From NCBI GenBank assembly GCA_947306305.1, contig CAMZGI010000004.1:1-37724 (forward strand): a DNA stretch of 37,724 nt, given 5' to 3'. The stretch's first letter is position 1, and every line of letters begins with the position of its first letter. Below, in pieces: positions 13,596-37,547 of the stretch. The notes beneath the pieces were generated by a model. The model saw only the letters and a program-made list of their open reading frames with translations, ran no database searches and was not told where the DNA came from. Source of the stretch: an uncultured Fibrobacter sp. (GTDB taxonomy: Bacteria; Fibrobacterota; Fibrobacteria; Fibrobacterales; Fibrobacteraceae). The position numbers and the translations under genes are program-made.

Positions 13596-15488
13596 TTAGA
13601 GGAACACCTCGATACCGCCGCGGCACTTTTCCCAAGCAGGGTTCTTTTTGCACAAGAGTTCAATCATCTTGTCGTAAGTAGCCGTGTTGGAGAAGCCCTT
13701 CCACAAGCGACGTTCCACAGATTCGCCCGAATCCTTGTCAATCGTCGTGATGGTATCGTAGTAGTTTGCGTTATCCTTGAATTCAGAAATGAGAATGTTC
13801 TTCAAGTCGTCCGTGTAGATGCGGGATGCATACTTGAGGATGGAATCGTTGAAGTTGAGTTCGTTTTCGACGAGCCATTCAAAGTCCTGAATCGGATTGC
13901 CGTAAATGAGCCAGTGGCGGAGAGCGAGAGCAACCACCAAGTCCTTCACTGCGCTGCGGAAGATGAACTTGTCTTCGAGACGGCCATTCCACGTGATGCG
14001 GGTCAGCGGGTTATCGTCGTTAGCTTCGATAGACACGCCCTTGCCCGGAGTGACCTTGCGGATCTTGATCGGGAGACGGCTAAGGAGCTGCCATGCCTTC
14101 GTGAAAGCGATAGTCTTGCGGACGAAATCCTTTTCCTTTTCGGGAGCCACGCGCACAAACGCGCCGAAGCAACGCTGGTAGAGCGTTTCCTTGTCAAAGA
14201 TGCAGTCGCTGGAGCGGCATTCGCTGAGCTTGCCATCCATCATGAACAATGTCTTAGCAAGTTCCGGACGCATACGCACTTCGAGCTTACGGGTACGAGC
14301 TTTAAGACGCACGCCATCCTTGTAAACGTAAGTAAAGCCTTCTTCCTGATAACGCTGCCAAATGAAGAACTGCAAATCGTCAGCAGCGCGCAGATGGTAG
14401 CTGAACACCGGGTTCTGGCGGTTGTTAGCCATAGTCACCTGGTTCAAGAAGTTGTCGGCACCCTGATACGGCACAACGACCTTCACGAGCACCTGCGGGT
14501 TCACCGGATGCTTGCTCTTCTTGGCATACTGTTCATAAGTGAAGAGGGACTGGGCACCGTTAATAATCTTCGGACGTTCGATGAAGAGAACCTTCTTGCC
14601 ATCGCGATCCTTCAAACGCAGGTCGTCGCCCGTAAGCGTCATACCATTGTGGAGGAACGGGAAGTCATCGACGTTCACATTCTTGTCGTCGTTGCGCTCC
14701 ATCGTCTGGAAAGCATCGATAAGAGCAGCGTTCGTATGGGTGAGGTTGCCCAAGTAAGTACGAATGTTGGAGCTCACAATAGCCATGTTGTGCTTCGTCT
14801 TGAGACGCTTGCCCAAAGCAACATGGTAGTCGAAAATCGTGCGGATCGGGCAGAAGCCGAGGAAAAGCTCGCCGTGATCAGAAGTGAGGTGAAGCGGTTC
14901 GGAATCCATCTCGATTTCAAGCTTGTCGTCTGCAGAACGGAAATCGCGAGTCAAGTCGTCGTGTTCGGCAATAATTTCGAGCTTTGCCTTCACGTCGGTC
15001 TTCCAAAGCATCAGCTTGCGGCGCATGTCCTTGAGAGTGCGTTCCAGTTCGGAATCGGTAATGTCACGGCTTGCGCGAGTGCGGAGCACCGTGATTTCCA
15101 AGGTTTCCATGTAAGGACGGCTTGCAGGAGTATTTTCGTCTTCTTCCGCTTCTTCGTCGGTAATCTTGTTGACCGCCCACGGGTCGGCTTCTTCGCGAAG
15201 CGAGAGGAAGAACGGATTGGTCGGGTCGCTAGTGCGGAACACTGCAATCTGAAGCTGCTTCAAATCGGCGTTCAGATGCGCAACCACCTTTTCGAGCGGA
15301 GTATCTTCGTCCAAAAAGATGAAGAATTCCATAAAACCCTGAGAATATTGGAAGCCATGGAAGCATCCATTTTCATCTAGGTTTAAGTGCCGGAGTGCCT
15401 TAATTCTATCGTTCGGGTCGTTAGGGTTCAAGCTCAAGAGGCTAGCGACAAATGCTAAGCGGCGTTCCTGCGATTTTGTTAGTTCCAT
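13596..15488 (-). CDS. AIPR-family (abortive infection phage resistance) protein, 630 aa
   Basis: AIPR-like core: NIRTYLGN...FLHNGMTLTGDDLRLKD...RPKIINGAQSLFTY...VLVKVVVPYQGADNFLNQVTMANNRQNPV. SD-like GAGGA upstream of ATG. Confidence 0.8.
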   Translation of the reverse strand: MELTKSQERRLAFVASLLSLNPNDPNDRIKALRHLNLDENGCFHGFQYSQGFMEFFIFLDEDTPLEKVVAHLNADLKQLQIAVFRTSDPTNPFFLSLREEADPWAVNKITDEEAEEDENTPASRPYMETLEITVLRTRASRDITDSELERTLKDMRRKLMLWKTDVKAKLEIIAEHDDLTRDFRSADDKLEIEMDSEPLHLTSDHGELFLGFCPIRTIFDYHVALGKRLKTKHNMAIVSSNIRTYLGNLTHTNAALIDAFQTMERNDDKNVNVDDFPFLHNGMTLTGDDLRLKDRDGKKVLFIERPKIINGAQSLFTYEQYAKKSKHPVNPQVLVKVVVPYQGADNFLNQVTMANNRQNPVFSYHLRAADDLQFFIWQRYQEEGFTYVYKDGVRLKARTRKLEVRMRPELAKTLFMMDGKLSECRSSDCIFDKETLYQRCFGAFVRVAPEKEKDFVRKTIAFTKAWQLLSRLPIKIRKVTPGKGVSIEANDDNPLTRITWNGRLEDKFIFRSAVKDLVVALALRHWLIYGNPIQDFEWLVENELNFNDSILKYASRIYTDDLKNILISEFKDNANYYDTITTIDKDSGESVERRLWKGFSNTATYDKMIELLCKKNPAWEKCRGGIEVFL

Positions 15489-15744: not shown

Positions 15745-18093
15745 TTACAACCCCATGTGGCGGCCCTCGCGAGAGTCCTTGCAAGCGACTTCGTGCTTTA
15801 ACGCATCGAAGATTTTATCGGCAGAAAGCTCCGACTTGTCAAAGAACCGGAACGTTCCATAAACCGCATTGAAATCGCCGGGAGCAAGTTGCCGCAATTC
15901 GCGGACAGCGGCAGGGCATGCAAATTCCGGGAAAAACGCATTCCACATGGATTCGGCCCCATCGGGCTGCAAATACCCGAACTTAATTTTCATGGCAAAG
16001 CGGCGACGCGATGCCTGATCCAGATTGTCGTTGAAGTTGGTTGCCGCAATGAAGATGCCCTTGAAGTTTTCCATCTGCGTCAAAAGCTCGTTTACTTGAG
16101 TGACTTCCCAACTGTGATCAGCCCCTGCACGTTCTTGAATCATGCTATCGGCCTCGTCCAAAAAGAGTATCGCATTCTTTTCTTCTGCTTCGCGGAACAT
16201 CTTGCGGATATTCTTTTCCGTTTCGCCTACATAGCAATTCAAAAGGTCGCTCGCCTTGCGGATTATCAACTTGCGGTTCAAATCGCGGGCGATGAACTTC
16301 GCGAGTTCCGTCTTGCCCGTTCCCGGAGGACCGTAAAAAAGAACGTTGAGCGAATCAGGCTTGTCCGCAGGCCGCATCTTTTTCCACTTTGCGTCAAAAG
16401 ATTTCATCACATGCTGCACATAGCTCATTTCGCAATCGAGGTTCAGCACGTCCAGCACATAACTCGGCGCATGAGATTCCTTGTCGCGAGAAGCATATTC
16501 CAACGACAAATCCAAAAGCGTCGTTTGGGCAGCAGCAATTTCACGCACAACCTCGGCTACGTCTATTTTGCAACCGCTTTTCTTGAGCATCTTTGCCCCG
16601 GCAATCGCCTGCGTAATCCCGCCCGCCGTAATCGGGTACGTATCCGCCAAATTTTGGACAACCTCTGGAGCAAGCAACTTAGCTGCATGCTGTTCCTTAA
16701 TCACAGAACGCCACATATCAATTCGTTTTTCCGATTCCAGCCGTTCAAAACGGAGCGAATAATCAAAACGACGCAAAGAACTCGCCTCGATAAGACCTAT
16801 GTTATTCGAAATCCAAATGACAGGAACACAAATCTGTTCCAAGAAAAAGTTAAGAGCCCCCTTTTCGCAGCAATTCAAGATAAGGTCAGCCTCATCGACA
16901 AGCAAAATCGCCTTTTGATTCTTGTACTTGTTCGCGGCAAAGAGAATGCTCCCCATTCTTTCTGCAATCGGAGAACCCTTGATGGAATCTTTGTGCACAC
17001 CGTTGGTGCTGACATTAGTCATGACAAGCGGACACTTGAGTTCATGAGCAATCGCCTTTGCAAGTTCCGTCTTTCCCGTACCCTCCACGCCGTAAAAGAA
17101 AACATTCAGCCTAGAGCCCACAGGATTGTTCTTCAACATTTCGAACATCAATTCAACCTTAGGATTACCCTTGCAAAGCTCGCGATAAGAAACGCATTTT
17201 CCTTTGTACGTCCGGCAATACAGGCTATCCAAATCATTGCCCGAACGACCATCCAAAAAATAACCAATGCGGCACGAAATATCGAGATCGTCATCGAGAA
17301 TGTTCATGCGTTTCAAGACACCATCGTTTGCAATAGCTTTTTCGATATTCAATTTAGGATAAAAAGCCGCGAAAATTTTAGATAAATTGCCATCCTCAAA
17401 TTTTCGATATCCATTCATACTGCTAATATTTTCACAAACACTCTTGTTCTTAAAAATCCAAGAAAACGCAACAAGCTCCAATTCAGTTTCGTTCAAATTC
17501 AGCGTTTTTTGCAAAAGCTTCAACCGTATCCAATAAGAATCCTTTGAAACATCCGAATTTTCCTCGATGAGCAAATAAAGTTCCCGCTCAAAACTTTCGA
17601 AAAACACCTTTTGAGCACTGGCATCAAAGATAGGTTCATCATTAAGACAATTGCGGACAACCCGATTCACATCATCGCTCGCACCAGAACTCTTGATAAA
17701 CTTGTTGAAGGACTGCACCGCTTTACGGCGGCGTATGTACAGAACCGATTTTCCTTCAAGCTCTTCGTCGCAATCATCGCCATCATCAACGCAAATGGAC
17801 TCCCACGGCATAACCTTATCTTTTTTCTGTTTGACCTGCGTTTTTTTCACCTTTTCATCTTCGAGCCGGTTCTTATACTCAAAATGCTCGGACATGCTTT
17901 TCAAAACATGCTTCGCGTTCGCTCTCGGGAGTATCCCCAAGCAATCGTCAACCTCTGGCCTTGCATTTCCACAACGCAAAGCACGGACCCAATATTCGTA
18001 ACCCTTGAGCGTGACAAAGTCAAGCTTTGCCTTTTTTGTAAAGACGTTTTTGTCCAAGTCCTTGAGGACATTTTTAAAATAATTTTCAGCCAT
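15745..18093 (-). CDS. Tandem AAA+ ATPase (two AAA modules, 782 aa)
   Basis: Walker A GVEGTGKTELAKAIA with Walker B AILLVDEAD; second Walker A GPPGTGKTELAKFIA with Walker B AILFLDEAD; Arg-finger-like SLRRFD and SRRRFAMKIKF. SD AAGGAG upstream. Confidence 0.9.
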   Translation of the reverse strand: MAENYFKNVLKDLDKNVFTKKAKLDFVTLKGYEYWVRALRCGNARPEVDDCLGILPRANAKHVLKSMSEHFEYKNRLEDEKVKKTQVKQKKDKVMPWESICVDDGDDCDEELEGKSVLYIRRRKAVQSFNKFIKSSGASDDVNRVVRNCLNDEPIFDASAQKVFFESFERELYLLIEENSDVSKDSYWIRLKLLQKTLNLNETELELVAFSWIFKNKSVCENISSMNGYRKFEDGNLSKIFAAFYPKLNIEKAIANDGVLKRMNILDDDLDISCRIGYFLDGRSGNDLDSLYCRTYKGKCVSYRELCKGNPKVELMFEMLKNNPVGSRLNVFFYGVEGTGKTELAKAIAHELKCPLVMTNVSTNGVHKDSIKGSPIAERMGSILFAANKYKNQKAILLVDEADLILNCCEKGALNFFLEQICVPVIWISNNIGLIEASSLRRFDYSLRFERLESEKRIDMWRSVIKEQHAAKLLAPEVVQNLADTYPITAGGITQAIAGAKMLKKSGCKIDVAEVVREIAAAQTTLLDLSLEYASRDKESHAPSYVLDVLNLDCEMSYVQHVMKSFDAKWKKMRPADKPDSLNVLFYGPPGTGKTELAKFIARDLNRKLIIRKASDLLNCYVGETEKNIRKMFREAEEKNAILFLDEADSMIQERAGADHSWEVTQVNELLTQMENFKGIFIAATNFNDNLDQASRRRFAMKIKFGYLQPDGAESMWNAFFPEFACPAAVRELRQLAPGDFNAVYGTFRFFDKSELSADKIFDALKHEVACKDSREGRHMGL

Positions 18094-18658: not shown

Positions 18659-19282
18659 AACAACGAACAGCAAACGCGTTCAAAAACACCCGAAACAACG
18701 ACATGGGCATCATTTTTTTACATAGCTATTTGCAATAGAAGCCACATTTTTCATAGGACTTTTACAGTTTCTGCCCCCTCCTCAAAATTCTCACACCGCA
18801 TAAAGCGGCATATTGGTCAACGCATCCTATGTCGAAAAGCATTTTTCGACACATAGGGCTTCTATACGGCACCCAGCGTTCCCATCCGCAGCCGTATTCA
18901 CTTTTTGAACCATTCGGGTTCATGCACAATGTTTTCTGCAATCTTTTTGAGGCAGCGTTTGCCGAGCCGTCGGTCAAGCAGAGCTAACAAGCGAATAAAA
19001 TAATTCTCATTTTGCAAGAATTTTTCGTAAGGAAACACATTCAAATAATCGTTGCACAAATTACATTCTGCAAACAACTTTATTCATAATATTCTCAGAA
19101 GACGTTTCGCAAGCATCAAAATCTTTCTTGCAGTCGAAACCGCGACAAATACAATCGTGGTCAATAACGGCATAAACAATGTGAACCCTCTCAAATCTGT
19201 TGTACTCGCTGCAACGGATTTTTCTACGCAACAGGTCTGTTTTAGGGAATTGAATCTATATTAAAGAAAAATGGAGTGTACG

Positions 19283-21325
19283 ATGATATTAAAAAAATTA
19301 CCAGTATTAACTGTTTCCGCAGTTTTGAGCTTTGTAGCATGTTCCGACGACCAAGGCGTTGGCCCCAACAACGAGGTATCCAACAACGATGTCCCCGGCT
19401 ACGAAGTTCCTGGCAATGAAATTTCCAGTTCCAGCATTATAATCCCCGGCACGGAGCTTTCTAGTTCCAGCCTTATCCTCCCCGGCACCGATTTTTCTAG
19501 CTCTAGCTTGATTCTTCCGGGTACCGAAATTTCGAGTTCCAGCATTCTTCCGAACACTGGTATTTCCAGTTCCGGCTTCACGCCTCCCAACAACACAGTC
19601 TCCAGTTCGAGCCTCGCAGTACCAAATAACGGAACTTCTAGTTCCAGTGCAGTAGTACCCAACAACGGCGGCTCGGGCGACAACGAAAACGATTTGGAAG
19701 ACGCAAGGACTTTGAACGGCACGCAAATCCTTTTGAAAGTTTCTGGAACAACGGCGACTGTCGAAAACAACAACGGCTGCGTCGAAGTGGCAGACAAGAG
19801 CGCAACGATTACTTGCCCAGGCGCATACTACGTCACCGGCGAATCGTCCGACTTCCAGCTTGTGGTAAACACCCCGGCAGCCGAAAAAGAAGGCAACACG
19901 GGCATCTACCTTTACAATGCAACTTTGAAGAGTTCCAACTCCCCCATCCTCATCAAGAACGCCGACAAGGCGGTGCTCCACTTGGTGAAGGGCACGACCA
20001 ACGTGATTGAAGACGGCAACGGCAGCCATGCGTTTACAAACGTTGGCGGCAAGCAAGACACGGCAAAGGCAGCAATTTATTCTAAAGACGACATGAACAT
20101 CAAGGGTGCAGGCAAGCTGACCGTCAAGGGCAACTTCAAGAACGGCATCCAGTCCAGCAACGACCTTAAAATAAAGAACGGCGACATCACCGTGGTTGCA
20201 AACGATGACGGCATCAAGGGCAAGGGCAGCCTTGAAATTTCGGGCGGCACCTTGAACATTACCGCCAAGGCGGGCGACGGCCTCGAAAGTGACGAATGCG
20301 TAGAAGACAACAGGGGTGAATTCAAGGACACCGTAGCACACAAGGGCATTGTCGAGATCTCCGGTGGCGACATCACTATCAAGGGACACAAGAGCGGCAT
20401 CAAGGCAGCCAACTACATTCTCGTGAGCGATTCTACCGAACCTTCGAAAATCAAGATTGAATCCCCCAACAAGGGCATCTCTGCTGAAAAGTACATCTAT
20501 ATCAATGGCGGCACCATCGACGTGAAATCGGATTCTTCTGCGATTCGTACCAACTGGCAAGTTTACATGAACGGCGGCGACGTGACCATTTCGACAAAGA
20601 AGAAGGGCATCCATGCGGATTCCGCTCTGTACTTGAGAGGTTCCACAGTCAACGTTGTAACATCATTTGAAGCTATAGAAGCGTTCAAAATTTTTGCCGA
20701 AGGCGGCGTGACCTCCGTGTTCGCCACTAACGACGGTTGGAACGGCGGTGGCGGCCCCAAGAACAACAACAGTTCCATGGCAATGTTCAGCGAAAGCAGT
20801 GGTTACATCACCATCACCGGTGGCTACCATTACATCAGCGTGAAGGGCAACATGGTTGACGGGTTAGATGCTAACGGTACTGGAAAAATGACCGGCGGCG
20901 TGGTGATTGTTGAAATTACCGGCCAAAGCTACGAGAATAGCGGCATGGGCGGCTTCGGTGGCGGCGGTATGGGCGGCGGCTTCAACTTCGGCGGCGGTGG
21001 CTGGGGCATGGGCGGCCAGCAGGGCGGCGGAAACAACTGCGGCGCATATAACTTTGCCGGCGGCCTCATCGATACCGACGACGGATTTACAATTACCGGC
21101 GGAGTCCTCCTCGCGTTTGGCAACTACACGATGGATGTTCCCGGCTGCACAGCTTTGACTTACAACAGCAATAACTACTATGGTTCCGACAAGGCTGCTT
21201 TCAAGCCGACATACCAAGGCAATTACATCCTTTACGGTGGCGAAGTCAAGTCTGCAGCTCAGGTGCAGACCAGCGGCATGAAGGAATTCAAGTTCCCCAA
21301 TGGCGTAAGCTACATGTACAAGTAA
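19283..21325 (+). CDS. Secreted lipoprotein with poly-Ser linker and beta-helix carbohydrate-binding domain (Cthe_2159/DUF4353-like)
   Basis: MILKKLPVLTVSAVLSFVAC lipobox; SSSS repeats; KAAIYSKDDMNIKGAGKLTVKGNFKNGIQSSNDLKIKNGDITVVANDDGIKGKGSLEISGGTLNITAKAGDGLESDE; Gly-rich loop. GGAG spacing favours start 19283 over 19271. Confidence 0.8.
   Translation: MILKKLPVLTVSAVLSFVACSDDQGVGPNNEVSNNDVPGYEVPGNEISSSSIIIPGTELSSSSLILPGTDFSSSSLILPGTEISSSSILPNTGISSSGFTPPNNTVSSSSLAVPNNGTSSSSAVVPNNGGSGDNENDLEDARTLNGTQILLKVSGTTATVENNNGCVEVADKSATITCPGAYYVTGESSDFQLVVNTPAAEKEGNTGIYLYNATLKSSNSPILIKNADKAVLHLVKGTTNVIEDGNGSHAFTNVGGKQDTAKAAIYSKDDMNIKGAGKLTVKGNFKNGIQSSNDLKIKNGDITVVANDDGIKGKGSLEISGGTLNITAKAGDGLESDECVEDNRGEFKDTVAHKGIVEISGGDITIKGHKSGIKAANYILVSDSTEPSKIKIESPNKGISAEKYIYINGGTIDVKSDSSAIRTNWQVYMNGGDVTISTKKKGIHADSALYLRGSTVNVVTSFEAIEAFKIFAEGGVTSVFATNDGWNGGGGPKNNNSSMAMFSESSGYITITGGYHYISVKGNMVDGLDANGTGKMTGGVVIVEITGQSYENSGMGGFGGGGMGGGFNFGGGGWGMGGQQGGGNNCGAYNFAGGLIDTDDGFTITGGVLLAFGNYTMDVPGCTALTYNSNNYYGSDKAAFKPTYQGNYILYGGEVKSAAQVQTSGMKEFKFPNGVSYMYK
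19421..19672 (+). repeat. In-frame degenerate tandem repeat (about 12-aa unit) encoding a Ser-rich linker
   Basis: ISSSSIIIPGTE / LSSSSLILPGTD / FSSSSLILPGTE / ISSSSILPNTG / ISSSGFTPPNNT / VSSSSLAVPNNG / TSSSSAVVPNNGG. Confidence 0.85.
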
Positions 21326-26153: not shown

Positions 26154-27335
26154 TTACATGTCGCCGGTTTTGAAATGTGTCTTATCGCGTAAATGCGTCA
26201 AGAACAGACCTAGCACCAAGTAAAAGACCGCCTGGATTGCAAGCAAATAGAGCTTTGGAGCCACATCGTAAATGTCCGCGCCCATCTGTTCAATCGAAAG
26301 CCACGCAGGCACAGCAAACGTACTCGGCAAAATATACGAAAGCCACACCATCCAGCTCGGCATCAAATAAGCTGGCCAGCTAAAGTTCGCGAGGAACAAT
26401 ATCGGGATGGAGAAGTTCAAGAACAGCTGCATGCTCGATTCGCGACGCAAGAATACTTGCGAAATGCACATTCCAAAATTGATGACCGACGAAAGGAATA
26501 CCGCCGCAAACACCACCATCGGCAAAAGTTCCCCACGACGCGGGAAGTCAAAGAGGTTGTAGATGAAGCAATGGTAGAACAAGATAAAGCAGCAATAGTG
26601 CAAGAAATACGCTAGAGCACGCCCCAAGTAGCGGTACGGCAAACTTTCGTTTTCGACTTCGGAATAGCGGTAGTTCCGGCGGAAACGACGGTGTCCACGG
26701 GCTCCGCCCATAATGCAAATGCCGATAATCAACGACTGCTGCAAAATCACCACGAGCACGCTAGGAACAACATAATTCGAGTAACTTCCCGTGTTGTTGT
26801 ACATCGTTTGTATTGATATCGGAATCGGGTCGCGCATAGCCATCGCCTTTGCAGAGGGCACTTGCTTGCCAAGAGCAATCGCCTTGACTTTGCTAACCGC
26901 GCCAACCGTCAACGCGCATGTCGCAAAAGCCGTTCCAATCGTGCCGTGAAGCATCACATAAGCGCCATGCGTAAAGATATTGACCTTCGTCGGCTTTTTG
27001 TTCAGCAAGTCCTTTTCCATGTTTTCAGGAATGACCATGAAGCCAAAAATATCTTCGCGAGCCATGGCGGTTTCTGCTTCGAGCATGTCGTTATAAACAG
27101 CCTTGACTTCGACCTGTTGCGTTGCAGAAGCCATCCGTACAAGTTCACGGGACTTCGCCGAATGATCCAAATCGACAACGCCGACCGGAACCTTTGAAAC
27201 AGTCTGGTTCACATACGCCGTCGGGTAGTAGAACGCATAGAGGACTCCAGCGACAACGAGCAAAAGCACCGCCGCAGGGTCCGTGAAAAATTGTTTCCAT
27301 TCCGTCAAAGTCACTTTCAAAAGACGACTAATCAT
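26154..27335 (-). CDS. ABC-2 type transporter permease
   Basis: N-terminal TM then large extracytoplasmic region (VPVGVVDLDHSAKSRELVRMASATQQVEVKAVY) and C-terminal TM bundle. Confidence 0.85.
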   Translation of the reverse strand: MISRLLKVTLTEWKQFFTDPAAVLLLVVAGVLYAFYYPTAYVNQTVSKVPVGVVDLDHSAKSRELVRMASATQQVEVKAVYNDMLEAETAMAREDIFGFMVIPENMEKDLLNKKPTKVNIFTHGAYVMLHGTIGTAFATCALTVGAVSKVKAIALGKQVPSAKAMAMRDPIPISIQTMYNNTGSYSNYVVPSVLVVILQQSLIIGICIMGGARGHRRFRRNYRYSEVENESLPYRYLGRALAYFLHYCCFILFYHCFIYNLFDFPRRGELLPMVVFAAVFLSSVINFGMCISQVFLRRESSMQLFLNFSIPILFLANFSWPAYLMPSWMVWLSYILPSTFAVPAWLSIEQMGADIYDVAPKLYLLAIQAVFYLVLGLFLTHLRDKTHFKTGDM

Positions 27336-28548
27336 TTTTTCGCCTCCTGATTTTTTCTAACAACTTGCCAAACTGCAAGTGAAATTCCGCAACGGGATTA
27401 TCGTCTTCGACGACTACGGGCATTTGAGAATCATGCTTCAAGCGGTACTTCCAACGGAGTTCCATCGCAAGACTTCCAAACAAAGTCCAGAACAATGCCA
27501 TGCCAGCCATAAGCTTGATAACTTCCCAAGAGGCTTGCATTCCGACATCGCCAAGGAGCATCATTGACTGCACGCGAAGCACATGCGTCAGCGGAAGCAC
27601 AAACGCAAAGCAACGCACTGCAAACGGCATCGCCATCACGGGGAACGTCTGACCCGCAAACGCAAACGCAGGGCCGCCAATCACGCCCGAAACGCCAGTC
27701 GCAATTCGCATCACGCCAGTAACGCCCACAAAAACCATCCCAGCCCCGACGCAACTAATCACCATCAAAAGTTGCGCGACAGAGACCATCACAAATTCTT
27801 CGAAGCCCATTGGCATAAGCATGCGGTGCGTGTAAGCGTAGCTGCCCATGTATTCGAGCCAAACAATAATCACAGCAGGGACAAACGAAGCGACGCCAAG
27901 CGTAAACCAAGAACGTTCTGCGTACTGGTAAAATTCACGCACTCGCTTATCGCGAAGCGGAAACGAACCCACATACACGGCGACAAGCATTGCCGCCAAA
28001 TGGAACATCGCAGACACAAGACCAAGAACCAAGAATCCTTGATAATTGCCTTCGATGTTGCCAACCGAATGAATCTCTGTTTTAATCGGGTCGTCAAAAG
28101 ATGCGGTAAAAAGATCCGTGCCCACATCCGTAATCGCCGCACGAATTTCCTTTGTTGCAAACATGTTCGTGAGGTAATTCTGACCGCTAGAATAAACGGG
28201 AATCACAGGAGCTTCAAGACGGAGCGCTCGGCGTTCCAAATCTGTCGGAAGCACGACAAATGTTTGCAAATCGCCACGGATAACCGCATGTTCACACTCC
28301 CCCATGTCATGGCAAATCAGCTTCACATCAAGCACAGGGCTAGACTGGAGTGCACGTTCTAGGCGGTCGGCGAGTTGGCTGTTATCTTGTTTGACAACGC
28401 CTATCGGAATATGCTGCACAATTTCATTCGAAAACATCTCCAGCACAAACACAGAGACACCCACGGGAAGCACAGCAAGAATCAACCACAAAACAATCTT
28501 GTGGCTAAAGTAAATTTTCCCAGTTGTCTTTAAAAGGCCTTTCAGCAC
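27328..28548 (-). CDS. ABC-2 type transporter permease, second subunit
   Basis: IPIGVVKQDNSQLADRLERALQSSPVLDVKLI; C-terminal TM bundle; overlaps the downstream permease by 8 bp. Confidence 0.85.
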   Translation of the reverse strand: MLKGLLKTTGKIYFSHKIVLWLILAVLPVGVSVFVLEMFSNEIVQHIPIGVVKQDNSQLADRLERALQSSPVLDVKLICHDMGECEHAVIRGDLQTFVVLPTDLERRALRLEAPVIPVYSSGQNYLTNMFATKEIRAAITDVGTDLFTASFDDPIKTEIHSVGNIEGNYQGFLVLGLVSAMFHLAAMLVAVYVGSFPLRDKRVREFYQYAERSWFTLGVASFVPAVIIVWLEYMGSYAYTHRMLMPMGFEEFVMVSVAQLLMVISCVGAGMVFVGVTGVMRIATGVSGVIGGPAFAFAGQTFPVMAMPFAVRCFAFVLPLTHVLRVQSMMLLGDVGMQASWEVIKLMAGMALFWTLFGSLAMELRWKYRLKHDSQMPVVVEDDNPVAEFHLQFGKLLEKIRRRKND

Positions 28549-28567
28549 AATAACCTTCTATTCCAGC

Positions 28568-29566
28568 TTACTCAATATCGTCAACAGGGAACAGAACGCT
28601 CATGCCCGGACGGAGGTTTTCGACCTTGTGGGTCGGACGCATGCGGACTTCGAACGTCTTGAGGTCAAAGCCTGCACTTTCTTTGGAACTACGCCATGTA
28701 GCGTAATCGCCAACGGACGCGATGTAGCTTACGACCATTTCGATAGTTTTGTCGAGAGCAGGGACCTGCAAGTAGAACTTTTTGCCCTTGAACACATTCT
28801 TGAGGTAATCTTCGCGAAGGTGGAAAACTGCCCAAGAATCATTCAAGTCGGTCACTGCGATAATCGGCATGCCAGAGCCAACGACTTCGCCTTCTTCGGC
28901 AAGTTTCAGAGAAACTTCGCCAGTAATCGGAGTGCGGATTTTGGTTTCTTCAAGGTAGGCATCGACTTCGGCGGTAGCGCCTTTAGCCTGCAACACGAGA
29001 GCGTTTGCGGCGGCCTTGTCTTCGCTACGGGCGCCAGCGACAGCCTGATTGTACTGAGCACGAGCAGCATCTGCAGCGGCCTGAGAAGCCTTCATCTGCG
29101 TTTCGGCTTCGTCGCGTTTTTGGAGCGGGAGCACGCCTTCGTTATAGAGCTTCTGCACACGGTCGTAGGTGTTCTTTGCAAGCGTTGCGGCTTCTTGAGC
29201 ACGATCCGACATAGCCTTGAGCGCGGTAATATCTTCGCTGCGAGCGCCATTGCGAGCCTTGCTGGCTTGAGCCTTAGCCGCGCCGAGAGCGCCTTGAGCC
29301 TGAATCTTCTTGGCTTCTATTTCTGGGCTGCTGAGGACTGCAATCAAGGAGTCCTTGTAAACCATGTCGCCTTCGTGAACATACAGATGTTCAATACGGC
29401 CCGGAACTTTGCCTGCCACAAGCACGCGGCGGGCTTCCATCTGGCCTTGCAGGAACTGTTCACGAGGTTGCGTTGCAAACTGTTGGAGCTGGGAGATTCC
29501 CAAAATAACCAACACAATCAAAGAAAGTACAACGATAACTTTTCCAATCATCTTTAAAGCGTTCAT
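28568..29566 (-). CDS. HlyD-family periplasmic adaptor (YhiI-like)
   Basis: VAGKVPGRIEHLYVHEGDMVYKDSLIAVLSSPEIEAKKIQAQGALGAAKAQ; IRTPITGEVSLKLAEEGEVVGSGMPIIAV. Confidence 0.92.
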   Translation of the reverse strand: MNALKMIGKVIVVLSLIVLVILGISQLQQFATQPREQFLQGQMEARRVLVAGKVPGRIEHLYVHEGDMVYKDSLIAVLSSPEIEAKKIQAQGALGAAKAQASKARNGARSEDITALKAMSDRAQEAATLAKNTYDRVQKLYNEGVLPLQKRDEAETQMKASQAAADAARAQYNQAVAGARSEDKAAANALVLQAKGATAEVDAYLEETKIRTPITGEVSLKLAEEGEVVGSGMPIIAVTDLNDSWAVFHLREDYLKNVFKGKKFYLQVPALDKTIEMVVSYIASVGDYATWRSSKESAGFDLKTFEVRMRPTHKVENLRPGMSVLFPVDDIE

Positions 29567-31341
29567 TATTTATTCTCCGTTTTTAAAATTTTTTCAGCGG
29601 GTTTCGCCGTTTCAGTCTTTTCTACAGAAGTTGCAGAATCCGCAGATGCCGCTGGAGCCGCCGCCGGAACAACCGCAGGAGCAACCGTTTCCACTTCAGT
29701 TGCAGCAGGAGCGGCACTGGTAGATGCGTCTGTCGAATTAACTGTCGTTTCAACCGGCTTCACAGGTTTTTCGACAAGCAACTGTTTCGAAATCAAAACA
29801 TCGCCAGCGGTAGAAACTTCGCCAGCCGCTTCGAGGAGTCCAAGCCATGCGACAACGGCATCGTAATGAGCTTTGAGGTCAGCTACCTGCAAACGAGAAA
29901 GCGCAAGTTCTGCATCCACGACATCAAGACCTGTTGCAAGCCCTGCTTCGTAAGCCTTGTTCTGGCTGCGTAAAGCTTCGTCGGCAAGTTCACGCGTCTT
30001 GGCGAGGCTCACGAGCCTTCCCTTTGCGTGTTCCAATTCACGCCAGCGTTTTTCGACAAGGAGCTTCAAGTTGTCTATCGTTTCTTCTTCGAGGCTTCCC
30101 AAAGAGCGGTCCATCGCCTTTGCAGAGCTCACCTTGGCACGGGTGTCGCCACCTTTGAAAATATCCCATTGGAGCTTTGCTCCCACAGCCCATTCCGGTT
30201 CGAGAATGGTCAAGTCCCTGGTGTAAAGTTCCTTGTAGCCAAACAATGCAACCGTCGGGTAATAATCTGCTTGAGCGGCCTTAATCGCATTCTGGTTACG
30301 CTTGCGTTCCACACGCAATTGGCGAAGTCCCGGATGATGTTCAACCGCGAGCTGCTTGAATTCTTCCATCGTGCGAATGCCCTCTGGAGCTTCGACCGGG
30401 GTCGTCGCCGTGAGGCTCGTATCGGTGCGCAAGAGGCTTGCAAGAGCCATACGTGCCAGCGACTGGTCGCGGAGGGCGTCTTCGTAAGCGTTCTCGGCTT
30501 CGGCTAGAGCAACCTCGGCACGGAGGCGTTCGGTCTTGCTAATCTGACCGCCTTCTTCAAGCTTCTTGGAGCGTTCCAGATGTTCAGCCAAATCCTTCTT
30601 GGTCGTCTCACGCATTACGACAAGTTCTTCGCAAAGGCGGAGCGTAAAATACTTTGTCGCAACATCCATGAGGACGGTGTTCTGAGCCATTTCGAATTCC
30701 GCCTTGCGGGCGTTCACATTCTCTTTGGCAGCATCGTATGCAGAGTAAATCTTGAAGCCTGTAAAGATGGGCCAAACGACAGTGAGGCGGGCGTTAAAGA
30801 ACCAATCGTCCTGAACCTTCATATTGAAGTCGGAATTGTTGATTTGGTCGGAATACTGCTTGCTCGCCTGATCTGCATACTGCACCGCAGCATCGTTCGC
30901 ATCTTTGCTATTGACCACGCCAGTCCAAATATCGGCAGACTTGGAATCGACATAAGCTTTAGCCTTGGTCTCGTCCATGCCAGCCGCCATCGCCTTAGCA
31001 ACCGCTTCTTGGTAGGCTTTAGCGTAAGCGCCATTGTACGTCGCGAGGTAAGCCTTGGAATAGGCGGCCGCCCCAGCAATATCGCTTAAAGGCTGCTGGA
31101 TTCGTCCCAAGTCAATAGAGATGGGGTCGTTGATTTTAGTGATGCCCGCCGTGAGGCTCACCGTGGGTAAGAAACGGGCAAAAGCTTCGTTCTTGCCACT
31201 TTCGGCAATATCTACTTTCGCCTTTTCTGCCTTGATTTTCGAATTGTTCGCCATGGCCATATCCAACGCTTCTTGTAAAGAAAGCGATGCGGCGTTCGAA
31301 GCCATGCTACCACATAAAATAAATGCAAGATACCGTTTCAT
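29566..31341 (-). CDS. TolC-family outer membrane efflux protein
   Basis: ASLSLQEALDMAMANNSKIKAEKAKVDIAESGKNEAFARFLPTVSLTAGI; internal Met with signal peptide MKRYLAFILCGSMASNA preferred to the 31380 start. Confidence 0.9.
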   Translation of the reverse strand: MKRYLAFILCGSMASNAASLSLQEALDMAMANNSKIKAEKAKVDIAESGKNEAFARFLPTVSLTAGITKINDPISIDLGRIQQPLSDIAGAAAYSKAYLATYNGAYAKAYQEAVAKAMAAGMDETKAKAYVDSKSADIWTGVVNSKDANDAAVQYADQASKQYSDQINNSDFNMKVQDDWFFNARLTVVWPIFTGFKIYSAYDAAKENVNARKAEFEMAQNTVLMDVATKYFTLRLCEELVVMRETTKKDLAEHLERSKKLEEGGQISKTERLRAEVALAEAENAYEDALRDQSLARMALASLLRTDTSLTATTPVEAPEGIRTMEEFKQLAVEHHPGLRQLRVERKRNQNAIKAAQADYYPTVALFGYKELYTRDLTILEPEWAVGAKLQWDIFKGGDTRAKVSSAKAMDRSLGSLEEETIDNLKLLVEKRWRELEHAKGRLVSLAKTRELADEALRSQNKAYEAGLATGLDVVDAELALSRLQVADLKAHYDAVVAWLGLLEAAGEVSTAGDVLISKQLLVEKPVKPVETTVNSTDASTSAAPAATEVETVAPAVVPAAAPAASADSATSVEKTETAKPAEKILKTENK

Positions 31342-31413
31342 AGCTAAATAAATAATACAAAAACATGTCGCTGTCAACAATTGTAAAACGAACCAAATGC
31401 CTATTGCAATAAA

Positions 31414-31442
31414 AAAAGTTCTGACGAAATGTCAGAACTTTT
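31414..31442 (-). terminator. Strong terminator ending the lamin-tail/VTC/DUF4956 operon
   Basis: AAAAGTTCTGAC-gaaat-GTCAGAACTTTT perfect 12-bp arms; minus strand continues in a T run. Confidence 0.9.
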
Positions 31443-31467
31443 GGCTTAAAACTCAATTGGGATGAAT

Positions 31468-33183
31468 TTACTTGCCTGGAGTCGGGTCGAGAGCCTGCCA
31501 AGCGGTGTATTCGTAACCCATCGTAGTGTATTCTTTGCGGTTGAGGCTCTTGCCCTTACCATCCGTTTCTGTCAAGCCCACCCAACGGTCGCTGTAAATC
31601 GTCGCATCGGACAATTCGTAGAACCATTGCTTGGTTCCATCAGACTTGTTGGCAAATGCGTAAGGCTTCTTGATAGCGATTGTTTCACCGCGGTTCGAGA
31701 GCTTACCAGCATAGAAGCGGATAAGGACTGCGTTATCGATGCCGTAACGAGCGCGGAGCACAGCTTCCTTGCCAGAGAGGGAGTCGCCGAACAAGAGCAT
31801 CTTTCCGCCAGCAGGGAGAACGTCCGTTGCAGCGAATTCCATGTTCACGCCTTCAATCTTCCAGCCCTTAGCGGTGCTGTTCACCGTTTCGAACAAGGTT
31901 ACGTTTTCAGTTCCCTTGTTTATAATTTCGAGGAATTCCACGTCATTTGGATTGTTTTCGTCTTCGTGGTAGTGGATTTCGCTAATAAAAATCGGACCGG
32001 CCTTGAGAACCGAGTTTGCAGCACCCGGAGTTTCAGAAGCCATAGTTCCCTGAACCGTAGAACCGCCGCTCACATCGACAACACCGCTAGACTGCTTACC
32101 CGCAGAAAGAAGCAAGCTCGATTCCTTACCCGTATGAGCGCCAGCTGCGGTCTCGTACAGATAAATTTCGTCGCCGTTATCGCTCAGGTAGAGGCCGTCG
32201 CCAAAAACTTCGGCTGTAGCTTCGAGGAGCAAGAATCCCTTAGCAGGGACAACCGTATTGGCACCGCCAATCTTCCAAGTCTTTTTCTTGTTCTTGGATT
32301 CGAGTTCCCAATCCTTGACATCGACAGGAGCATCGCCGTAGTTGTAAAGTTCAATCCAGCCATCCGTCGTGCCCAAAACATAGGGCTTGATTTCGTTCAG
32401 GCGAACCTTCACTTCTTCAATAGTCTTGTCGCCGCCTACGCAGGGATTGCCGTTTTCAACGGCACTAGCGCCCCAAGAGGACGGACTAGCTTCGCTACCC
32501 GTGCCCTTATAGACAAGAGAGCGACCATTGCCATCGGCAAGGCTTGGCCAAGGAGGCAAGTTACTGAAAGCAGCGCTCACGTCGCCTTCGCCTTTAATCT
32601 TGACATCGACGACATCGCCTTCGTTGATGAGCTTTGCGACAGCGCCAGTCTTCGGATCATTATCCCACGGACCATAGACTTTGCAAGCGGCAGTCGGATA
32701 AGTCTGCTTGAACAAATTGACATCGTTCGTGACAATGACGTATTCGCCCTTCTTCAAAGCTCCAGACGGGAATGCAAAAGACACTGCACCATCCAGACGG
32801 AGGGCACTCAGTTCCATGTCGGTAATACTCGGGCCGTTCTTGATATAGACTTCGACCCATTCCAACGCAGAACCGTTCGGAGCGTTGTACATAATTTCAG
32901 AAATACCCATCTGTGCCGTAGAGGTATCAACCTGAACTTCGGGAGTGCTCGAAGAAACAGGAACGGCCGAACCGGCTGAAGAAGTCGGAACAACAGCCGA
33001 AGAAGGAGTCGGATTATCAGTGCTGCTAGTCGGTACAGTTGCAGCAGAAGAGCCCGGAACAATATCCAGAGCGCTAGAGAGTCCCGGCTCAGGAGTAACA
33101 GGGCTAGATTCTTCGGAGCAGGCAGAGAACATGCTCAACACAGAGACACAAGTGCCAACGGCAAGCCAATTTTTCGTATTCAT
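31468..33183 (-). CDS. Secreted lipoprotein with lamin-tail (LTD) domains
   Basis: Lipobox LSMFSACSEES; Ser-rich linker; LTD-like ISEIMYNAPNGSALEWVEVYIKNGPSITDMELSALRLDG, VRLNEIKPYVLGTTDGWIELYNYGDAPVDVKDWELES, FISEIHYHEDENNPNDVEFLEIINKGTENVTL. Confidence 0.85.
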   Translation of the reverse strand: MNTKNWLAVGTCVSVLSMFSACSEESSPVTPEPGLSSALDIVPGSSAATVPTSSTDNPTPSSAVVPTSSAGSAVPVSSSTPEVQVDTSTAQMGISEIMYNAPNGSALEWVEVYIKNGPSITDMELSALRLDGAVSFAFPSGALKKGEYVIVTNDVNLFKQTYPTAACKVYGPWDNDPKTGAVAKLINEGDVVDVKIKGEGDVSAAFSNLPPWPSLADGNGRSLVYKGTGSEASPSSWGASAVENGNPCVGGDKTIEEVKVRLNEIKPYVLGTTDGWIELYNYGDAPVDVKDWELESKNKKKTWKIGGANTVVPAKGFLLLEATAEVFGDGLYLSDNGDEIYLYETAAGAHTGKESSLLLSAGKQSSGVVDVSGGSTVQGTMASETPGAANSVLKAGPIFISEIHYHEDENNPNDVEFLEIINKGTENVTLFETVNSTAKGWKIEGVNMEFAATDVLPAGGKMLLFGDSLSGKEAVLRARYGIDNAVLIRFYAGKLSNRGETIAIKKPYAFANKSDGTKQWFYELSDATIYSDRWVGLTETDGKGKSLNRKEYTTMGYEYTAWQALDPTPGK

Positions 33184-33214
33184 AAGCGCCTTCCTTTTTT
33201 ATTGTTAAATCTAC

Positions 33215-34033
33215 TTAAAAATTTCCGGCGAGGCGAGTCCAATATGGGCTCTTAAAACGACGCGGATTTTCGTAAACGCGTTTCCATTCCGCAGCCGCAT
33301 TGCCAAACTTGGAGAAACCGGAGTTCTTCAAATTCAACTCGCGAATGAGGTCAAACATCCAGTAAGGCATCTGTGCCGCCGGGCATTTGAGCTCCAGCAC
33401 GGCATCGGCGCCAGGCTGAAAGAATCGCGGAATTCCCGTAGAGTGCATGTAGTGCGGATCCACGGTATAGTCAAAGCCATTTTCTTCGCGGAAGCGCATG
33501 CCTGTGTCGATCGTCACACGGGAATACTCTTCGCGAAGCCCAAACCACGCACGACGCTTGTACTGCGTCAAAAGACGCGGATGCGCATTGTGGAGTTCGG
33601 TCTTGTACAAGAAGTCCTTGAGGTACATGCGGTCTTTGTCGGTCTTGCACGGCCATTCTTCGGGCTTCATGTGCCACACTTCGCTGGGATTGATGCCCTT
33701 GATCGTGGCACGGCTCTTGTAGCAAATATTGCGGATCTTGCGTTTGCACTCAAAGTGGAACGTGCCGTCTTGCGCGGGGTGTTCACCATAAGTGCGGATA
33801 CGCATGTTGAAGCGATCCAAAAGCTGTTTCTTTTTCCAGCCAAGGAACGTCCACTTCGGGGAATCCAAATAGAGGTTCGTAATCCAGTAGAATCCACCCG
33901 GAGTAATCTTGGAATAATAGTCTTCTTCGCAGTACGGAGCCAAGAACGTGCCAATCCTATCCGCCCATTCGACGGGGATATGGTACTTGAGCTCGAAACG
34001 TTCGAGAAGGCTAAATCCGCGGGCTTCTGCCAT
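33215..34033 (-). CDS. VTC-domain (polyphosphate polymerase-like) protein
   Basis: RFELKYHIPVEWADRIGTFLAPYCEEDYY...YWITNLYLDSPKWTFLGWKKKQLLDRFNMRIRTYG...FHFECKRKIRNICYKSRATI...AVLELKCPAAQMPYWMFDLIRELNLKNSGFSKFGNA. Confidence 0.88.
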   Translation of the reverse strand: MAEARGFSLLERFELKYHIPVEWADRIGTFLAPYCEEDYYSKITPGGFYWITNLYLDSPKWTFLGWKKKQLLDRFNMRIRTYGEHPAQDGTFHFECKRKIRNICYKSRATIKGINPSEVWHMKPEEWPCKTDKDRMYLKDFLYKTELHNAHPRLLTQYKRRAWFGLREEYSRVTIDTGMRFREENGFDYTVDPHYMHSTGIPRFFQPGADAVLELKCPAAQMPYWMFDLIRELNLKNSGFSKFGNAAAEWKRVYENPRRFKSPYWTRLAGNF

Positions 34034-34035
34034 AA

Positions 34036-35439
34036 TTACCTGATTCCTTCACGAAGATGGTTTGTAACATCCTGACGGGCGAGAGCGCCGGAATAGTCCA
34101 GCAAGGACAAATAGCGGGCAAAGATATCGTATTCAAGCTTTGCAGCCTTCAAGTCGCTTTCGAGAGCGCTTTCGCGAGCACGGAGGAGCAACAGCGGATC
34201 AGAACCGGCATTGCGGGCAAACTGTTCCATAAAGCCGCTGGCATTCACTTGTTCGGCATAATCCTTCAAGACCTTCCACTGGTCGATGAGCGTGAGCACT
34301 TCTTCGGTGAGACGAGCCACCTTCTGGTTCACTTCACGGACTTCATCCAAATACTTGCTTTCGGCATCAAGCTTTTCAACCTGTTCACGGAGAGAAGCAT
34401 CCTTGTTGCTATCGAAGAACGGAAGACGGAAAGCCAAATTCAAGAAGAACTTGTCGGCAATCTTGCGATTATCGGTGTCTGGGAAAAGTTTTCTTAATTT
34501 ATAAGTAGCGTCATACCCTGCGCATTCGCCAGTTTCAGTAACCCTTACGTTACAGGCGTTCGCCATCCACTCGGATTCGTAATCGTCGTACCTTGCGCCA
34601 GACTTAATATCCTTGTATTCCAAGTCCTTGTACTTTTCCATCAAGGATTCAATCTGGAGCGAATAACCGATACCGACATGCGAAATGTAGTTGCGGTCCT
34701 TGCTTGCATCCTGTTGTGCCTTAGAAACATCGGAATCGCGTTTGCCCTTCGCGAGAGCCACGAGCGGGAAGTTTTCGTCAACAGTCACGCCGTTCTTCAA
34801 GAACTCGGCAAGCTCGTCCATCGTCGGGATGAACGAAGAGTCCAAAAAGACATTGTCGTATGCTGGAGCCCAAGCCAGCATCTTGAGTTCGGCATCGCGG
34901 AGAGCCGTGCTGTCCGAAAGCAAGTTAGCCTTAAGCGAGGCACTTTTTTCAAGCGAGGTCATCAAGTCTTCGGCATTGAACGAAGCGGATCCCGACTTGA
35001 GGTGGAGCACCTCGATACGGTCCTGGATAACCTGCAACAGTTGCTTGTTGATTTCGTTAATCTTCTGACGAAGCACATAGCGCACACCGCGTTCGTAGCG
35101 ATCGTAAAGGAGGATCGAACGTTCAACGGCAAAAGTAGCCTGCTGGTAATTCTTAACAGCCTCATAGTGAGCCTTGTCGGCATCGCGTTCGCCAAAAGCC
35201 TGCGGTGTCACACGAAGTTCAAAGTCGTGTTTGGCAAAGCTAAAGCCGTCCATCTGGTAACGGAGTTCGAGCTTGTCCCAAAGCTTAAGGTTACGTTCTT
35301 TCGCTGTTGCTTCGGCACGTTTTTCAGCAGCCTCATACCTCGGATCGGCCTTAGCGGATTCGATCAGGCGTTCCCAAGTGAGGGGGCTTGCAATAGCTGC
35401 CGCAGAGAGCGCAAGCGATATTAACGATACTGATTTCAT
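34036..35439 (-). CDS. TolC-like outer-membrane/coiled-coil protein
   Basis: Signal peptide MKSVSLISLALSAAAIAS; long helical heptad regions typical of outer membrane factors; sits next to a HlyD-like adaptor. Confidence 0.65.
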   Translation of the reverse strand: MKSVSLISLALSAAAIASPLTWERLIESAKADPRYEAAEKRAEATAKERNLKLWDKLELRYQMDGFSFAKHDFELRVTPQAFGERDADKAHYEAVKNYQQATFAVERSILLYDRYERGVRYVLRQKINEINKQLLQVIQDRIEVLHLKSGSASFNAEDLMTSLEKSASLKANLLSDSTALRDAELKMLAWAPAYDNVFLDSSFIPTMDELAEFLKNGVTVDENFPLVALAKGKRDSDVSKAQQDASKDRNYISHVGIGYSLQIESLMEKYKDLEYKDIKSGARYDDYESEWMANACNVRVTETGECAGYDATYKLRKLFPDTDNRKIADKFFLNLAFRLPFFDSNKDASLREQVEKLDAESKYLDEVREVNQKVARLTEEVLTLIDQWKVLKDYAEQVNASGFMEQFARNAGSDPLLLLRARESALESDLKAAKLEYDIFARYLSLLDYSGALARQDVTNHLREGIR

Positions 35440-35440
35440 A

Positions 35441-36547
35441 TTACTTAGCCTTCTGTTGCTGCTTCTTCAAGTTGCGGATGCTCGTTTCGCTGATGGTCAC
35501 CATTTCGCCGAGCAAGAAAGAGTTTTCTTCAGGAATCTTGATGGTCACTTCGCGACCATAGACCGGCAATTCAGGCATTTTCCACATACGAGTCGGGAAC
35601 GGGACGATACGGCTCGAAAGACCGACAACTTCGCCAATCACAGCCTTGCCGTTGCCAGCAAGCGTGGTCACCTTCACGGCTTCGCCGAGGTTCATGTTCT
35701 GGTAAATCTGTTCGTTGATGTAGCCGCGAATAAGAGTCGGAGACTTGTGGGCAAGCGTTACGATCGGAGCAAAGCTAGAGACCTTTTCGCCATCGCGAAC
35801 GTTCACGTCGCCAACGACCCAGTCTTCCTTGGCAATCTGAGTGAGTTCGAGCTGCTGCTTGCGGAGTTCGGCAACTTCCTTGCGGATGTTTGCTGCATCA
35901 ATCTTGCCGCTAGACTTTTGGAGGCGGCTGCTGCCACGGAGGAGGGCGATCTGTTCGTTAGCGCTCTTGACGGCGAGGTTCAATTCGTTCTTGAGGCTCT
36001 TGATGCGCATAGCCATGGCATCGTTGCCGTCGGACTTGGACTTGGAGTTGGAAAGGCTCTTGAGCTTAGCGGAGATGGCCTTGTTGCTTTCGTATTCCGT
36101 TTCGAGGTTGCGGATTTCGGCAGTGAGAGCCAAGCGACGAGTTTCGAGATTGGCCTTGACATCGGCGACCTTCTGGTCGATTTCGGCGGAGCTCAAGTTG
36201 CTGCGGCCTTCGATGTTATCGAGTTCGCGAGTGAGTTCTGCAAGGCGAAGAGTCAAATCAGGGCGGTTGAGCACCACGATAGTATCGCCAGCCTTGATTT
36301 CTTGACCCGGAACGACATAAATCTTGACGATTTCGGTCGGAGACGGGAGGCTGATAATCGTTTCGCTAGATTCTGCAATGCCACGGAACATAGCCGCCTT
36401 GCCCTGATACATAAAGCCAAGCAAAACAGCGATTACGACGCAGAGAATCCAAGCGATAGAAAGCTTATGGGTATAGACGTAGGCGACACCCGCATTGTTC
36501 TTGTGGGTATTCCAGAAATTGTCGAGAAGATCTTCAAGTTTATTCAT
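35441..36547 (-). CDS. HlyD/membrane-fusion-like adaptor protein
   Basis: N-terminal TM ILCVVIAVLLGFMYQG; IISLPSPTEIVKIYVVPGQEIKAGDTIVVLNRPDLTLRLAELTRELD lipoyl-like half; long coiled coil; VRDGEKVSSFAPIVTLAHKSPTLIRGYINEQIYQNMNLGEAVKV. SD AAGGAG. Confidence 0.85.
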   Translation of the reverse strand: MNKLEDLLDNFWNTHKNNAGVAYVYTHKLSIAWILCVVIAVLLGFMYQGKAAMFRGIAESSETIISLPSPTEIVKIYVVPGQEIKAGDTIVVLNRPDLTLRLAELTRELDNIEGRSNLSSAEIDQKVADVKANLETRRLALTAEIRNLETEYESNKAISAKLKSLSNSKSKSDGNDAMAMRIKSLKNELNLAVKSANEQIALLRGSSRLQKSSGKIDAANIRKEVAELRKQQLELTQIAKEDWVVGDVNVRDGEKVSSFAPIVTLAHKSPTLIRGYINEQIYQNMNLGEAVKVTTLAGNGKAVIGEVVGLSSRIVPFPTRMWKMPELPVYGREVTIKIPEENSFLLGEMVTISETSIRNLKKQQQKAK

Positions 36548-36560
36548 TTTTCAAATCTCC

Positions 36561-37244
36561 TTACATTTCCGTCGTTGCGTCTTGCATCATGAACTGGACA
36601 TCCGAAATGCCTTCAATCTTCGAGAGCATCGTGAGGATTTCGGCAGCAGGCTTCGTGGCACGGAGGCGAATCTGGTAGGCGACGTCCAGACGAGCGCCAC
36701 CATCAACCTCTCGCATCGTGATCAAAATAAACGTCTTTAAATTGCCCTTCATGATATCTTCGACCTGACCACGGACCTTGGGTTCGTTCGGGAGAGCAAA
36801 ACGGAGCATACCGTCAAAGAAGTGCTTGGTACCGAGACCCGTACGGGAAAGCAAGAAAGCTACACAGCAGAACGAGATTGTACCGCCCACGGCAGCGCCC
36901 CACGCATAGACACCGCAACCGATGCCCGCGCCTAGCGACGCGAATATGAACATAATATCTCGCGGGTCCTTGAAACTCGTACGGAAGCGGACCACCGAGA
37001 GAGCACCCATCATGCCGAGACCGCGGCCGACGTTATCGCCGATGGCCTGCATGATCATAGCAGCAGCAACAGCACTCAAGACAATACCTTGGACGAAGTT
37101 TCGAGAGTAGGATAGTCCAAGGAACGTTTTCTCATACGTCCAGCCAATCATCGAAGACAGGATGAAAGCAAGAATCAATGTGTATGCAAGCGTAATAATC
37201 GTTGCGTTTGTTGTGCTGGACTGGACAGCAAGAAGGTCAAGCAT
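36561..37244 (-). CDS. DUF4956 family membrane protein
   Basis: GRGLGMMGALSVVRFRTSFKDPRDIMFIFASLGAGIGCGVYAWG signature; SD GGAG 5 nt before ATG at 37244 (ORF-track start 37286 is less likely). Confidence 0.88.
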   Translation of the reverse strand: MLDLLAVQSSTTNATIITLAYTLILAFILSSMIGWTYEKTFLGLSYSRNFVQGIVLSAVAAAMIMQAIGDNVGRGLGMMGALSVVRFRTSFKDPRDIMFIFASLGAGIGCGVYAWGAAVGGTISFCCVAFLLSRTGLGTKHFFDGMLRFALPNEPKVRGQVEDIMKGNLKTFILITMREVDGGARLDVAYQIRLRATKPAAEILTMLSKIEGISDVQFMMQDATTEM

Positions 37245-37547
37245 AATAACTCCATTTATTAGTTTCTTTTTAGGCCATGTGTCCAAAATTTACTTAAAAA
37301 CGAGCATTTTATACTCTTTTTTATGTAAATAATGGACTAACAAAAATATTACAACCTTGTTTTGCCAAGATTCGGGCGTATTTCGCCCGCTTTTACTTTT
37401 GAAAGAGCCCTAAAAACCCACGCTAAAAATAATAAAACTACATTTTTTAGAATCTAAAAAAAATAGTTACATGTTGGTTACTGTAACAACGCATTGTAGA
37501 GAACTCAACGACTGTTTATTTTAGGAAACATTCCTAGACGAAAGAAC

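Follow-up and report, generated by a model that had tools for sequence, protein, structure and literature searches.

A conserved VTC–DUF4956 operon with adaptor and predicted outer-membrane factor genes: a candidate polyphosphate synthesis-and-export system of two-membraned bacteria

Gene organization of the operon

The window analysed here is a stretch of 37,724 nt from an uncultured Fibrobacter sp., a gut bacterium (contig CAMZGI010000004.1 of assembly GCA_947306305.1). It covers that contig from end to end; the genome itself is incomplete, at 70% and in 388 contigs. In it we found five open reading frames, all on the minus strand and separated by 13, 1, 2 and 31 bp, for a DUF4956 inner-membrane protein, a periplasmic adaptor, an outer-membrane factor (OMF), a VTC tunnel enzyme and a lamin-tail-domain (LTD) lipoprotein. 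The initial annotation of the window had listed the same genes, strand and gaps and a terminator after the last gene, all of which we confirmed; only the start of the first gene moves. The DUF4956 gene (36561..37244, −) most likely begins at the ATG at 37244 and not at the TTG at 37286, because GGAG lies upstream of the ATG and most relatives have a protein of the resulting length, 227 aa. Its product matches PF16316 (44.2 bits, cut-off 30.6) and is MgtC-like, with five predicted transmembrane (TM) helices and an ACT-like C-terminal domain; we propose it as a conduit or anchor.

The HlyD/EmrA-type adaptor (35441..36547, −; 368 aa) matches the Pfam families HlyD_D23 and HlyD_3, has one N-terminal TM helix by hydropathy and carries no propeller domain. 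The predicted TolC-like OMF (34036..35439, −; 467 aa) has an N-terminal signal-like segment and matches OEP marginally (22.3 bits, cut-off 22). The VTC protein (33215..34033, −; 272 aa), a proposed polyphosphate (polyP) polymerase, scores 107.2 bits against PF09359, for which the curated cut-off is 23, and shows no TM-like segment by hydropathy, as for a soluble protein. The LTD lipoprotein (31468..33183, −; 571 aa) has the lipobox-like motif LSMFSAC and three LTD stretches (PF00932, 92 bits). An intrinsic terminator (31442-31414, −) with a 12-pair stem and a T-tract follows; a simple scan of the window gave it by far the longest stem, and returned nine terminator-like sites, about equal to the 8.4 found in shuffles.

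Conservation of the core genes across phyla

A VTC gene was present in 117 of the 151 Fibrobacterota genomes searched, and in 76/80 within the genus Fibrobacter. Neighbourhoods retrieved for 60 of these loci fell into two arrangements. In type A, seen at 38 loci from five families, the genes run DUF4956-HlyD-OMF-VTC in one order and on one strand, even where identity to the window proteins has fallen to about 30% for VTC, 45% for DUF4956 and 16-20% for the OMF; the LTD lipoprotein gene comes next in 36 of the 38. In type B, VTC and DUF4956 have no adaptor or OMF with them, and Cthe_2159 carbohydrate-binding proteins or CotH proteins are encoded nearby. The type-A VTCs form a single clade against the Fibrobacterota type B in a tree, with a support of 0.69 on a long branch.

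To look further afield, we scanned 84,980 species genomes once, with the type-A VTC alignment alone as the query; the scan used type-A motifs and is therefore biased to type A. It gave 80 loci, Fibrobacterota included. The other carriers belong to Desulfobacterota, Bdellovibrionota/Oligoflexia, Gamma- and Alphaproteobacteria, Nitrospirota, Campylobacterota, Spirochaetota, Calditrichota, Planctomycetota, UBP6 and Delongbacteria, and the carrier groups with names are all two-membraned. At 52 loci outside Fibrobacterota the sequence reached 3.5 kb or more upstream; every one of these has the adaptor, and 48 have adaptor, OMF and DUF4956 within 6.5 kb. The position of DUF4956 varies across the scanned loci, where it is either first in the operon or after VTC. 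An independent, Pfam-based VTC search of the class Desulfobacteria (147 genomes) showed a patchy distribution, with VTC in 10/147; among nine further loci read from it, five are of type A (one ending at a contig edge) and three of type B, and the remaining one was too short for an assignment.

Because order and strand are kept at 38 Fibrobacterota loci and the core recurs in about ten other diderm phyla, the linkage of these genes is far beyond chance. The operon is real, and its distribution is much broader than the window alone could reveal. We looked for fusions among the four core proteins and found none; the one double match (L128) was an overlap of the adaptor tail and the OMF.

The VTC protein and the catalytic residues of Vtc4

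A phmmer search of the PDB with the single window VTC returned only Vtc2, at an E-value of 0.74, whereas a profile of the VTC alignment had the Vtc4, Vtc2 and Vtc3 structures as its best matches (Vtc4, E 7e-8). In the profile alignment (residue numbers counted along the printed chain, with an offset of 3), window R78, R80, K97 and K106 correspond to Vtc4 R264, R266, K281 and K294, and R160, E214, S241 and K242 to R361, E426, S457 and K458; K16 corresponds to K200 by motif, outside the aligned stretch. Residues matching Vtc4 R264, R266, E426, K200, K281, K294 and R361 are identical in 118/118 type-A VTCs. Those matching S457 and K458, of which K458 has been termed catalytic (PMC4641920), are identical too except for a single alignment gap at S241/K242, which leaves K458 kept in 117/118. 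The triple change R264A/R266A/E426N is a published catalytically impaired form of Vtc4 (PMC9911596). In the hydrolase AtTTM3 an acidic patch replaces four basic residues of Vtc4 (PMC4641920); by our positional mapping, the window VTC appears to have basic residues (R12, K106 and K216) at three of these sites, where TTM hydrolases have Glu. Polymerase activity of the window VTC is likely but not certain on this sequence evidence, and polyP its probable product.

The initial annotation had pictured VTC, DUF4956, adaptor and OMF as an envelope-spanning machine. This idea survives the two checks it named beforehand: nearly every type-A relative has its adaptor and OMF genes linked to VTC, and the catalytic Arg/Lys/Glu are invariant on alignment.

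The membrane and envelope components

The adaptor has EmrA chains as its best PDB relatives. A profile of the OMF matched no PDB sequence, and fold comparison settled its assignment instead: an AlphaFold2 (AF2) model with a pLDDT of 83 matched TolC in Foldseek (E 4e-11), predicting a TolC-like protein. The operon has the adaptor and the predicted TolC fold of a tripartite membrane-fusion-protein/OMF export system, and shares with EmrAB-TolC, MacAB-TolC and HlyBD-TolC the adaptor family, the predicted OMF fold and the adjacency of the genes. It differs in that the core contains a polymerase and DUF4956 in place of an energised inner-membrane pump, and in that type-A adaptors often carry a C-terminal propeller. 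As the initial annotation had noted for the operon, no transporter ATPase is visible, and across the type-A core no ABC, MFS or RND pump is conserved. For this reason we do not file the operon as a classic tripartite pump, though the core may work like one.

DUF4956 is a remote relative of MgtC/SapB, as judged by profile comparison, and not a member of the MgtC family proper (PF02308). The window protein does not reach the PF02308 cut-off and has DUF4956 as its sole Pfam match. In favour of the remote relationship, the NCBIfam MgtC/SapB model matches it at E 0.0016, though far below the model's cut-off. The two families align by hhalign with a probability of 95.7 over 189 columns that include both the TM and C-terminal domains, and one relative (locus L062) exceeds the Pfam cut-offs of DUF4956 and MgtC alike. 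A DUF4956 profile found no match among PDB sequences. In the AF2 model five long helices accompany an ACT-like domain, and the PDB matches of the latter include the MgtC C-terminal domain. Five predicted TM helices and an ACT-like C-terminal domain are common to DUF4956 and the MgtC/SapB family; peculiar to DUF4956 are a conserved RFRT-x2-KDPRD stretch and its life beside VTC. R86, R88 and the KDPRD stretch vary little or not at all; a polyanion path here is no more than a guess. The long MgtC-like proteins of Fibrobacter, which belong to another subfamily, failed to align with DUF4956 by hhalign.

Phosphate genes and the distribution of polyphosphate kinases

PiT transporters lie in or beside three Gammaproteobacteria loci (L149, L157 and L166). 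In a Nitrospirota locus (L164), VTC is followed by a PstS-like protein, PhoU, two permeases and an ABC ATPase; a calcineurin-like phosphoesterase lies within another operon (L117), and a Na/Pi cotransporter adjoins VTC in L062, a locus without export genes. The initial annotation had allowed for a phosphate-containing or other anionic polymer, and the phosphate transporters beside some relatives point to polyP as the product. Among the 80 Fibrobacter genomes, in which VTC is so common, polyphosphate kinase (PPK) 1 was found in 3/80 and PPK2 in 0/80. PPK1 was likewise not found in 8/12 other carriers examined, including Desulfonema magnum and Desulfoluna limicola.

A model for coupled synthesis and export, and its alternatives

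We consider it rather probable that this operon specifies a machine with which two-membraned bacteria couple the synthesis of polyP to its export; the product, its export and its route are what we infer from gene content and homology. The soluble VTC enzyme would polymerise polyP from ATP at the cytosolic face, and the growing chain would pass through or along DUF4956, which would replace the TM channel of eukaryotic VTC. The EmrA/HlyD-type adaptor and the TolC-type factor, the likely export route, would then carry the polymer over the periplasm and outer membrane. At the surface, LTD lipoproteins in Fibrobacterota, and CotH kinases and propeller proteins elsewhere, might bind, use or trim it. 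An ATPase would be unnecessary if translocation is powered by synthesis itself, as it is in yeast, whose VTC complex couples cytosolic synthesis to translocation (PMC9911596, PMC4641920). Yeast Vtc4 and the window system have in common the VTC tunnel domain, the matching catalytic Arg/Lys/Glu and an enzyme expected in the cytosol, with a polymer that would cross the membrane during synthesis. The window system differs in having no SPX domain or Vtc1-type TM domain, in its separate MgtC-like DUF4956 protein, adaptor and OMF, in K455, which is not conserved, and in the destination, which would be the cell exterior and not the vacuole.

Several observations weigh against this model. The position of Vtc4 K455 is Gly, Ser or Ala in nearly all type-A VTCs (type-B VTCs likewise lack the Lys), and E14 of the window VTC is a retained acidic-patch Glu, so the activity could differ; membership of the VTC family by homology stands, since K455 is no criterion of the family profile. 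The membrane part of DUF4956 is poorly modelled (pLDDT 63), and its role as a conduit is put forward as a hypothesis. Phosphate transporters lie beside only a minority of loci, and in other bacteria CotH-VTC-DUF4956 cassettes adjoin pel exopolysaccharide genes (PMC7112168).

This last association, described in Gram-positives, speaks for a different division of labour. VTC and DUF4956 would make and retain polyP at the inner membrane, or would regulate the supply of phosphate or energy there, and the adaptor and OMF would export another product. That product could be, for example, an exopolysaccharide or surface protein that depends on polyP or CotH-type kinases for its synthesis or modification. 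Type-B loci adjoin Cthe_2159 carbohydrate-binding proteins and one type-A locus (L163) a polysaccharide deacetylase, both of which fit this alternative. We nevertheless regard it as fairly unlikely: no glycosyltransferase is conserved in type-A operons, and the way in which the adaptor and OMF follow this VTC clade from phylum to phylum suggests that they are coupled directly to the VTC product. The retained E14 and lost K455, together with the hydrolases among members of the TTM fold (PMC4641920) and the nearby phosphate uptake genes and propellers of weak phytase-like similarity, could instead mean that VTC acts as a tunnel hydrolase or as a sensor, and that the system has a part in scavenging phosphate or in envelope signalling and not in polymer export. 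The best profile matches are to Vtc4, Vtc2 and Vtc3, the catalytic Vtc4 residues including K458 are conserved, and an adaptor and a TolC-type factor are export parts, so that we give this explanation little credence. An ordinary drug-efflux adaptor and OMF might also sit beside VTC by coincidence, given that they belong to the same families as efflux pumps and that a second TolC-HlyD-ABC-2 operon lies directly downstream. With no pump component in the core, and the identical core present in anciently diverged phyla, we rejected this as contradicted by the gene linkage across phyla and think it highly improbable.

The core is present in lineages with isolates (Fibrobacter, Bdellovibrio, Desulfonema and Desulfoluna), which makes PPK-independent polyP synthesis and surface delivery directly testable. 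DUF4956, placed near MgtC, gains a probable role. We know of no dedicated bacterial polyP exporter and, to our knowledge, bacterial VTC proteins owe their annotation solely to similarity.

Relation to CotH cassettes and accessory proteins

Genes for CotH, a polyP polymerase and DUF4956 are known to adjoin pel loci (PMC7112168), and NELoc-2 of C. perfringens holds VTC and CotH genes with a VTC neighbour annotated as tubulin/FtsZ (PMC2879425) that is probably DUF4956. As in those cassettes, VTC and DUF4956 are adjacent here and CotH is present in many loci, and the Fibrobacterota type-B loci look the same; an HlyD adaptor or OMF is undescribed there. The cassettes without the export pair are thus already known. 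For an HlyD/OMF-linked VTC or for polyP export we found nothing relevant in the open-access literature, and novelty is to that extent uncertain.

The window operon has no CotH gene by Pfam and is in this respect not such a cassette. There are 10 CotH matches elsewhere in the source genome, and every Fibrobacter genome searched has CotH. Among the 80 scanned loci 23 contain CotH, which accompanies the core in many non-Fibrobacterota lineages. In Desulfobacteria, CotH and VTC each occur in 10/147 genomes and share seven (hypergeometric p 5e-8, uncorrected for relatedness); some of the pairs are linked in one locus. Surface CotH kinases have no ready ATP outside the cell. A possible phosphate source for them is suggested, and we hypothesise that it is exported polyP. 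The fullest version of this proposal is tentative, and we think it more doubtful than probable: a dedicated machine across diderm phyla would export polyP to the surface as it is made, be the sole polyP synthase in PPK-less organisms, and may provide the phosphoryl donor for surface CotH kinases.

The initial annotation had included the LTD lipoprotein as a surface effector or anchor of the system. It falls outside the conserved core: beyond Fibrobacterota, LTD mostly takes the form of a fusion with CotH, or it is missing, and the lipoprotein is a lineage-specific accessory typical of Fibrobacterota. Propeller-like domains (DUF3616, SdiA-regulated or phytase-like, mostly weak matches) occur in 46/80 scanned loci, fused to the adaptor or adjacent; the window operon has none.

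Other genes occur beside the core in relatives. In UBP6-like rumen genomes (L146:3838-5610 and the L147:11479-12390 entry) a C25 peptidase precedes the core operon and a conserved membrane-like protein of ~305 aa, without a Pfam match, comes after it. Halobacteriovorax/Oligoflexia loci have a ~1110-1150-aa protein with a signal-like N-terminus beside the core (L137:10943-14272, L140:10795-14124 and L141:2757-6203); the two scanned (L137 and L141) had no Pfam match.

Other genes of the window

The second export operon (26154-31380, −) encodes TolC-like and HlyD-like proteins and two ABC-2 permeases, and is separated from the VTC operon by the terminator; among sampled relatives the two adjoin nearly only within the genus. 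A Cthe_2159 carbohydrate-binding protein (19271-21325, +; 684 aa) belongs to the family encoded next to the type-B VTC genes of relatives. The window also encodes a 2424-aa protein (6199-13473, −) similar to SprA_N, which is related to type IX secretion and gliding, and an AIPR-family protein adjoining a double-AAA ATPase (13596-15488 and 15745-18093, −). Members of the AIPR family are frequently associated with phage defence.

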